Origin: Sphingomonadales bacterium
GTDB lineage: Bacteria; Pseudomonadota; Alphaproteobacteria; Sphingomonadales; Sphingomonadaceae
Length of the DNA stretch: 64,000 bases
Assembly (NCBI GenBank): GCA_027483465.1
Contig: JAIXUQ010000088.1
Span: 1-64,000, forward strand
Direction: 5' to 3'
Both the position numbers and the translations under genes were made by a program. This document shows, in pieces, positions 44,785 to 45,274 of the stretch; position 1 is the first letter of the stretch; the number at the start of each line of letters is the position of its first letter. The notes under the pieces were generated by a model that was given only the letters and a program-made list of their open reading frames with translations, ran no database searches and was not told the DNA's origin.

Positions 44785-44817
44785 GTCATTCCCGCGAAAG
44801 CGGGAACCCATCGCCCG
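44785..44817 (+). repeat. 33-bp repeat, left inverted copy beside a GIY-YIG gene
   Basis: The 33 bases match the reverse complement of 45204-45236 at 32 of 33 positions. Inside it, TTCCCGC and GCGGGAA form a hairpin with a GAAA loop. It starts 21 bp after the ilvH stop. Confidence 0.9.
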
Positions 44818-44863
44818 CCCTCGGCGCGGCGGATGGGCAGGCAAGCAAAGGTCAACCAACAGG

Positions 44864-45235
44864 ATGGAGAGAAGGAGCGGCACCGTCTACATTCTGGCCA
44901 ATCGCAAACAGGGGGCGCTCTACACCGGCGTGACGTCAAATCTGGCTGGCCGCATCCACCAGCATCGCATGGGTGAGACACCTGGGTTTGCGACACGATA
45001 CGGCATCAAGCGGCTGATGTGGTTTGAGCAGCATTGGGACATTGCGGAAGCGATCGTCCGCGAGACACAGATCAAACGATGGAACCGGGCGTGGAAGATC
45101 CAACTGATCGAGAAGGAAAACCCGGATTGGGATGATCTGGCGGTCAAACTGTTGGGGTTCGAGCCACTGCCGGGGGTTGCAGTTGTTCGTGCCCCGGTGA
45201 GTGCGGGCGATGGGTTCCCGCGTTCGCGGGAATGA
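44864..45235 (+). CDS. GIY-YIG domain nuclease-like protein inside the ilv operon
   Basis: The protein is 123 aa starting [17 protein letters not shown]. The single domain has VYILAN (GIY half), LYTGVTS (YIG half), RIHQHR with the conserved Arg, and [10 protein letters not shown] with the metal-binding Glu. These are typical of small UvrC/URI-type GIY-YIG proteins. Its last residues and stop are encoded by the right-hand 33-bp inverted repeat, so gene and repeat are physically joined. It is about half identical to the second GIY-YIG gene at 50227. It interrupts ilvH and ilvC, which usually adjoin; activity is not shown. Confidence 0.85.
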
Positions 45236-45236
45236 C
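45204..45236 (-). repeat. 33-bp repeat, right inverted copy overlapping the GIY-YIG stop
   Basis: Inverted copy of 44785-44817 with one mismatch. The core TTCCCGCG-TT-CGCGGGAA is a perfect palindrome. The stop codon of the GIY-YIG gene (45233-45235) lies inside it. Confidence 0.9.
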
Positions 45237-45249
45237 ACTGGATGGAGTT

Positions 45250-45274
45250 GGGTTCCCGCGGTCGCGGGGACGAC
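45250..45274 (-). repeat. Third, degenerate copy of the palindromic repeat core
   Basis: GGGTTCCCGCGGTCGCGGGG followed by ACGAC resembles the core of the 33-bp repeats. It sits in the 65 bp between the GIY-YIG stop and ilvC. Confidence 0.75.

Follow-up and report, generated by a model that had tools for sequence, protein, structure and literature searches.

A subfamily of standalone GIY-YIG nucleases emerges from genome comparison as the dedicated partner of CGTC REPs, an association that can be regarded as nearly established, and mobilisation of the repeats by these enzymes is likely. In the window, the whole 64,000-nucleotide stretch of Sphingomonadales DNA that was analysed, ilvH and ilvC enclose what is probably a REPtron-like element, in which a standalone GIY-YIG endonuclease with a UPF0213/Slx1-like fold lies between outward-facing CGTC REPs and would be their dedicated partner and most likely their mobiliser (Table 1). 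Comparison across genomes shows the association itself, the matching of repeat classes to enzymes, their co-inheritance, duplicated units, gene-less sites and conserved catalytic residues. CGTC REPs, Neisseria dRS3 included, are intergenic in many proteobacteria and had no known spreading enzyme; a concrete partner this small, its catalytic residues intact, opens the question to direct testing in vitro.

The unit between ilvH and ilvC

The left arm of the unit (44785-44830) and the right arm (45191-45236) are inverted copies with 89% identity over 46 bp and a single mismatch in their first 33 bases, which confirms the first-pass annotation of a 33-bp repeat, 32 of 33 positions identical, in opposite orientation on either side of a 123-aa GIY-YIG gene (P0001). 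The third, degenerate copy that it described is present at 45244-45275 with 84% identity to the right copy, and the stop codon of P0001 (TGA, 45233-45235) does sit in the right copy, the protein ending in ...GFPRSRE. Within the window, TTCCCGCGNNNGCGGGAA at up to two mismatches gave six matches (three sites on both strands) relative to 0.64 expected, and none of 100 shuffles reached six. A hairpin had been claimed for each repeat; this held for the left and right REPs, with single-stranded DNA folds of -8.5 kcal/mol (z -3.3) and -7.5 kcal/mol (z -1.9), but the fold of the third copy was weak (-5.3 kcal/mol, z -0.9). The description of the repeat type as scattered palindromes fails for the window genome, where no sites at up to one mismatch were found in the 3.58 Mb assembly beyond the three of the unit; the class of REP beside a second gene, P0002, had 17 model matches.

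Table 1 Features of the two GIY-YIG loci in the window and of the genes that border the first
Feature	Position	Strand	Remarks
ilvH	44251..44763	+	left neighbour, outside the unit
Left REP, class 4 (4-nt loop)	44784..44811	+	tag GGTC, a CGTC variant, outermost; 7-bp stem TTCCCGC/GCGGGAA; loop GAAA; tail CCA
P0001 GIY-YIG nuclease ORF	44864..45235	+	123 aa; ATG start assumed; Y9, Y20, R30, H34, E67 and N86 present
Right REP, inverted copy	45210..45237	-	TGTC tag outermost; overlaps final codons and stop of the P0001 ORF
Third REP copy, degenerate	45248..45275	-	same orientation as right REP
ilvC	45301..46320	+	right neighbour, outside the unit
Class 5 REP (CTTGT loop), left member of inverted pair	50108..50136	+	upstream of P0002
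Class 5 REP, right member of this pair	50179..50207	-	pair REPIN-like, 100 bp
P0002 GIY-YIG nuclease ORF	50227..50550	+	107 aa; 55% identity to P0001; REPs seen upstream only

P0002, which the first-pass annotation overlooked, has just upstream of it a perfectly inverted pair of REPs of a different type. Pairs of this kind, about 100 bp long, recur at several further sites of the window genome, one of which (L229) has the inner sequence in common. PF01541 (GIY-YIG) was matched at three places in the window assembly, namely P0001 (E 1.3e-12, 48.3 bits against a cut-off of 22.6), P0002 and a 654-codon open frame that is presumably UvrC. The window GIY-YIG proteins had no match in PHROGs, and NCBIfam gave no match for P0001 and nothing close to a cut-off for P0002, for which PADLOC returned only weak partial matches to PDC-S14 (E 0.0015-0.0064). 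The C-terminal codons of the enzyme appear to be recruited from REP sequence in the window (45203-45235) and also at loci L038, L055 and L089 (for example ...DPGASPG and ...DAETSSA).

Judged by their sequence, the window hairpins are CGTC-type REPs that largely fit the published description. Passages of the survey by Di Nocera, De Gregorio and Rocco (2013, PMC3733652) describe these elements as carrying the tag CGTC, often TGTC or CCTC, an 8-9 bp stem starting A-T, a loop of 4 or 5 nt and a CCA tail, and as occurring mostly as inverted dimers and mostly in alphaproteobacteria, with Neisseria dRS3 and Rickettsia RPE-4/6 among the members. In the window, the tag is TGTC in the right and third copies and CGTC in the P0002-type REPs, and the GGTC of the left copy deviates. 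The stem of the P0002-type REP is as described, while among the P0001-type stems the left and right copies pair over 7 bp with the first A unpaired and the third copy pairs over 5 bp. Both loop sizes occur (4 nt, and 5 nt as CTTGT), with CCA tails. Covariation in the REPs did not exceed shuffles on every measure, and the counts are biased because the REPs were selected through a hairpin search.

The residues expected of an active enzyme are conserved at 98-100% in the REP-linked proteins: Y9 in 105/105, Y20 in 105/105, R30 in 104/106, H34 in 105/106, E67 in 107/107 and N86 in 106/107. By comparison with I-TevI, we take the Tyr, Tyr, Arg, His and Glu positions, together with the Asn, to be the catalytic set. 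The predicted structure of P0001 (pLDDT 89.7) consists of one domain and a low-confidence tail, and its nearest solved structure is UPF0213 BH0048 (1zg2, E 7.4e-4), followed by weaker matches to Slx1-Slx4 (E 0.02 and worse). A separate DNA-recognition domain was not found in P0001, as only PF01541 scored above the Pfam cut-off.

Association with CGTC REPs and matching of repeat class to enzyme

A contig scan with P0001 and P0002 gave 548 confirmed loci, and around the best 80 of these the density of strict CGTC REPs was 5.51 per kb in the 100 bp next to the gene, then 1.08 at 100-200 bp and 0.58 at 200-300 bp, compared with 0.013-0.042 beyond 500 bp. A strict REP was present within 500 bp at 55 of these 80 loci and within 150 bp of 52 (34 on both sides), relative to 33 of 906 other ORFs of at least 100 aa at these loci (odds ratio 49, p 2.8e-43). 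The CGTCAT-only tag was too strict, and a relaxed NGTCA[CT] tag regained further genes; with the relaxed tag, among the same best 80 loci and within 300 bp, REPs accompanied the gene in 48/48 Sphingomonadales, 6/7 Legionellales, 2/3 Desulfobacterales and 10/10 from other groups, but in 1/4 Caulobacterales, 0/5 Hyphomicrobiales and 0/1 each of Chromatiales, Micropepsales and Spirochaetota. Genes left without a REP often have variants, with CGTCG or CCTCA tags or forked hairpins.

Two further genome sets were chosen independently of the repeat. The first comprised 60 genomes including the window genome, drawn by relationship rather than by repeat, in 40 of which P0001 had a match at one to six places each; 70 of the 80 listed rows were examined and 68 recovered, and one gene of a tandem pair in G057 was probably read twice. 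Here a REP lay within 400 bp of 45/55 genes scoring at least 80 bits, 4/7 at 60-80 bits and 0/6 below 60 bits, and REP density was 2.39/kb near the gene and 0.076/kb far from it. The second was a phylum-wide set of 299 genomes, again including the window genome, in 70 of which the subfamily was found at E 1e-25 or better; of 116 places listed, 114 were outside the window genome and 89, mostly the stronger ones, were examined (double reading is probable for tandem pairs in G235 and G337). Within 300 bp, a CGTC REP was present at 50 of these 89 genes, at 61 when tag variants were included by a finder that had no control of its own, and at 78 when any flanking exact inverted repeat of at least 14 nt was counted; beyond the window's family the corresponding values were 39, 50 and 66 of 76. 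Neither a REP nor a flanking inverted repeat was found at 11/89. Flanking inverted repeats occurred at 52/89 genes and in none of 25 control windows 600-960 bp away. At three loci of family f16 (L354, L357 and L358), exact inverted flanks of 64-71 nt stand in place of short REPs. The enrichment of GIY-YIG genes of this subfamily near the repeat, whose absence the first-pass annotation had named as a refutation, is strong in the contig scan, among the relatives and phylum-wide.

P0002 also matched 34 records of a plasmid collection, and of 12 examined, eight carried CGTC REPs within 400 bp, one of them a Neisseria gonorrhoeae gene inside a dRS3 array. The N. aromaticivorans record has the CGTCG variant, and those of R. 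tumorigenes and Sinorhizobium C101 have a CCTC-tag variant; an additional weak AGTC match in R. tumorigenes was left out of the count. The N. gonorrhoeae array (L234:1-3270) holds 16 dRS3-type (CGTC-1) repeats around the subfamily gene. On a Planktothrix plasmid (L242), a subfamily member without any REP lies between an MmeI-type restriction gene and the DISARM gene drmA.

The REPs are ordered around the genes and matched to them. The nearest REPs on both sides face outward at 66 of 88 genes (11 are ++, 8 inward and 3 --), and the two share an identical 8-nt arm in 55/88 pairs. Most loops fall into two classes, GNAR with 4 nt and CTYGW with 5 nt, the rest being unclassified, and no gene of 89 with at least two classified REPs within 200 bp had mixed classes; in the phylum-wide sample one of 37 did (L304). 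Mapped onto a 132-protein tree, the loop-5 label changes 13 times relative to 43.0 when shuffled, and none of 500 shuffles was as low; the tree is built on 98 columns with many unresolved forks, its related rows are not independent, and a few places are entered twice (e.g. L017/L099). On this tree the loop class follows the enzyme, which indicates that enzyme and repeat class are co-inherited. Several genomes with more than one gene, including the window genome, have different REP classes beside different genes. Stem type A was present in 4/4 genomes whose gene bears type A and 8/56 others, and stem type B in 3/3 genomes whose gene bears type B and 4/57 others; both were picked after they had been sighted beside genes and were counted in the 60 genomes, where the reversed pattern had no match, and the p values (0.001 each) are optimistic because the species are related. 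The highest type B count, 47, was in G034, in which no type-B gene was seen, and 23 copies of type A occur in G003, a genome without the gene.

REP numbers across whole genomes follow the gene as well. Using strict filters, two REP models (R1 and R2, which leave stems longer than 8 bp outside) were counted in the 60 genomes, and a genome was called gene-bearing at E 2e-15 or better, a threshold chosen once the list had been seen. The median REP total was 59 in 37 gene-bearing genomes and 6 in the 23 without (p 2.3e-5), per-model counts near 125 being lower bounds, and two REPs or fewer were found in 1/37 and 11/23, respectively. Within the genus, the difference (39 in 18 genomes with the gene, 21 in 6 without) was not significant (p 0.067). 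REP-rich genomes without a detected gene were G018 (104), G044 (86), G054 (41), G048 (38) and G003 (31), along with G040 (at least 125, weak matches); these could have lost their enzymes, contain draft gaps or reflect the action of another enzyme.

The IS200/RAYT family (PF01797) was matched in 10 of the 60 genomes and in 5 of the 37 gene-bearing ones, and had no match in the other 50, including the window genome (96% complete) and several REP-rich ones. A RAYT as mobiliser in the window genome is unsupported, as PF01797 has no match there.

DUF559 genes of the same 60 genomes served as a control, with 30 loci fetched and 23 having full flanks. All 23 had a CCTC-rich hairpin within 300 bp, 20 of them on both sides, under a definition written after viewing these loci (a narrower motif gave 19/23), and only one had a CGTC REP. 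Among 133 GIY-YIG genes with at least 75 bits and full flanks, a few of them counted twice, 109 had a CGTC REP and three a CCTC hairpin, and for background ORFs these counts were 53/845 and 28/845. Thus the two nucleases pair with two different palindromes. Chance proximity in gene gaps was considered as an explanation and is ruled out by this control together with the ORF background. DUF559 genes are bracketed by inverted CCTC-rich hairpins at loci L197-L226 (e.g. L203, L219 and L225). We tentatively propose, as a generalisation with nearly even prospects of being right, that hydrolytic nucleases rather than transposases drive a whole class of bacterial palindromic repeats, with at least two unrelated nuclease families involved, GIY-YIG enzymes acting on CGTC REPs (Neisseria dRS3 included) and DUF559 on CCTC-rich palindromes, each recognising its hairpin class and spreading it by cutting and host repair; REPs would then disseminate without any transposase. 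The DUF559 parallel points the same way as the GIY-YIG case within the same genomes and provides a built-in specificity control. In the open-licence PubMed Central literature we found no report pairing GIY-YIG with REPs or dRS3, or with intergenic inverted repeats in Sphingomonas; by title, papers combining it with REPINs, extragenic or miniature inverted elements dealt with restriction enzymes, Moraxella, and eukaryotic elements or tools, and none of 25 titles on the wider theme of GIY-YIG, repeats, palindromes and RAYTs concerned this pairing. No relevant report on DUF559 with palindromes was found by title, and dRS3 was combined with RAYT only in the 2013 survey of CGTC REPs; 'GIY' does not occur in passages of PMC12306157, PMC6006769 and PMC5082802.

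Gene-free sites, duplicated units and competing explanations

The ilvH-ilvC gap was surveyed in 36 genomes, which returned 30 loci and 27 relatives with a readable gap. None of the 27 has the GIY-YIG gene, and in 13 the gap is 32-73 bp long and has no hairpin that reaches 7 bp; the ilvH-GIY-YIG-ilvC order, whose presence in all relatives the first-pass annotation had named as a refutation, is not general. In G008 and G016 the gap contains an inverted CGTC pair without a gene. The gap (44764-45300 in the window) appears to be a hotspot, which depending on species holds CGTC REP pairs, CCTC-rich palindrome pairs or, in G017, a CTCGACTTCGCTCGG-type inverted pair. Similar comparisons are available elsewhere. 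Azospirillum lipoferum has REP pair, gene and REP pair between sufB and sufC (617 bp), a gap of 87-129 bp in A. ramasamyi, A. oryzae and strain B510, where the surroundings are 93.8-94.8% identical to those of A. lipoferum. In Sphingomonas parapaucimobilis, this same gap holds a DUF559 gene (L255:1445-1855). In Sphingobium TYG46 and MM7A the unit separates fnrL from the gene of a regulator, a spot occupied by a solo REP in TYG74, a CCTC-rich palindrome in TYG72 and a short gap in TYG65.

Two genomes contain the unit twice at non-homologous sites. The copies in G037 align over 420 bp at 89.8% identity, their edges lying 12 and 22 bp beyond the outer tags, and those in a Phenylobacterium MAG over 552 bp at 95.8% identity, here with edges 9 and 20 bp beyond the tags, the latter units being bounded by 52-55 bp inverted ends starting CGTCATCCCGGG; no alignment was reported beyond the edges in either, and both assemblies are fragmented, so that the duplications might be binning errors. 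A bounded mobile unit with inverted ends is thus seen in these relatives and not in the window genome. The ends in the Phenylobacterium MAG (L062, L079) are long, apparently forked hairpins. No clear target-site duplication was found in the two duplicated units or in two gene-free-site comparisons, in which the flanks have diverged. Many units occupy the identical place in several species, which indicates that movement is rare. Together, subfamily enrichment, class matching and gene-less ilvH-ilvC gaps favor the original proposal of a mini-element made of palindromes and a dedicated GIY-YIG partner.

A mechanism by which the enzyme might mobilise the REPs can be outlined. The REP would form a hairpin or cruciform, as its predicted fold suggests, in single-stranded DNA, for example at a replication fork. 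Conservation, the edges of the duplicated units and the fold suggest that each enzyme would recognise a hairpin with the loop of its class, GNAR or CTYGW, combined with a YGTCA tag and a CCA tail, and that it may nick this hairpin close to its base, next to the tag. The DNA between two tags could then be released or copied and joined elsewhere through host repair. Solo REPs, inverted REP pairs and, rarely, a full REP-gene-REP unit would be the products of such a process, and products of this kind are seen.

Homing would reverse the roles, with the REPs as target sites that spread by other means and a free-standing GIY-YIG homing endonuclease that cuts gene-less REP or REP-pair sites, into which repair copies the gene. 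GIY-YIG is a classic homing nuclease domain in review passages; in favour of homing, the REP-gene-REP of the window has gene-less inverted REP pairs as its counterpart in G008 and G016, and a solo REP of Sphingobium TYG74 marks the spot of the TYG46 unit. We consider it unlikely, as homing enzymes usually carry a DNA-recognition part and here only the catalytic domain passes a Pfam cut-off, the duplicated copies bring their own REPs to non-homologous places, and REP number tracks gene presence, which pure homing does not predict. A housekeeping role, in which a structure-specific nuclease resolves or trims REP hairpins and does not move the REPs, which are retained because they serve it as substrate or operator, accords with UPF0213 and, more weakly, Slx1-Slx4 as the best structure matches and with long-term retention at fixed sites. 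It leaves unexplained why outward REPs bracket the gene (66/88), why units are duplicated with edges near the tags, and why presence is patchy and accompanied by decay (a stop lies inside 20 of the 80 P0001 matches listed for the 60 relatives), and is in our judgement likewise unlikely.

The small GIY-YIG genes could also be passengers that merely occupy REP-rich gaps while an IS200-type or RAYT transposase spreads the REPs. Passages of PMC3733652 propose RAYTs as partners of GTAG REPs and consider RAYTs or other transposases possible for CGTC REPs, but the distribution of PF01797 given above runs against this, the match of REP loop class to gene (0/89 mixed) is unexpected for passengers, and DUF559 genes of the same genomes are nearly devoid of CGTC REPs, which makes a passenger role very improbable. 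That the palindromes do no more than regulate transcription of the GIY-YIG gene, as terminator or operator, is scarcely credible. Hairpins do lie near both gene ends, one overlapping the stop codon; yet hairpins of the same classes, with conserved unpaired tag and tail, exist in tens of copies elsewhere in many genomes, no Rfam family was matched in a search of 44700-45400, an upstream inverted copy is needless for a terminator, and the frequent identity of the 8-nt arm (55/88) is not that of unrelated hairpins.

Comparison with known systems

GIY-YIG homing endonucleases such as I-TevI and Seg usually have a DNA-recognition part. The subfamily described here has the catalytic domain in common with them, and selfish spread is proposed for both, but it differs in that no recognition domain was found, there is no intron, and hairpins of DNA flank the gene on either side. 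Like the unit, MITEs and insertion sequences have inverted ends around one gene and short gene-less relatives; they differ in that no transposase and no clear target-site duplication is found here.

Among standalone GIY-YIG proteins, Slx1 and UPF0213 have a minimal domain like that of P0001 and are its nearest solved folds. Slx1 is a branched-DNA nuclease that lacks a C-terminal Asn (passages of Dunin-Horkawicz et al. 2006, PMC1564403, and, for the former, PDB titles). In the P0001 subfamily no RING domain was found, and N86 is present (106/107), whose equivalence to the Asn missing from Slx1 is putative. An association with repeats goes unmentioned in those passages, unlike what is seen for the subfamily here.

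The CGTC REP superfamily, as presented in passages of PMC3733652, shares the tag, loop sizes, CCA tail and inverted dimers with the window repeats, apart from the deviations noted, and the 8-9 bp stem with the P0002-type REP, and its 4-nt and 5-nt loop families resemble the two enzyme-linked classes. It is said there to 'apparently lack a dedicated transposase', with no associated transposase reported, no GIY-YIG gene named in those passages and the word 'nuclease' used once, whereas here a nuclease partner is present.

A further parallel is with REP/RAYT REPtrons and REPINs, in which the gene of a single-domain DNA enzyme likewise adjoins inverted REPs and is kept at few sites, while REP pairs without a gene are dispersed. 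The arrangement of REPtrons, in which inverted REPs of the enzyme's own type stand on both sides of its gene, is found for P0001 and the subfamily, and P0002 has the REPs upstream only. The enzymes differ, that of the REPtrons being an HUH tyrosine transposase of the IS200 family and that of the unit a GIY-YIG nuclease in a genome without an IS200 family match. The REP/RAYT comparison drawn in the first-pass annotation was thus apt, given the fit to CGTC REPs, the lack of a RAYT-family match in the genome and the joint inheritance of enzyme and repeat class. If the enzyme does spread the REPs, a hydrolytic nuclease can mobilise such repeats, and REP/RAYT would be one case of a wider rule.
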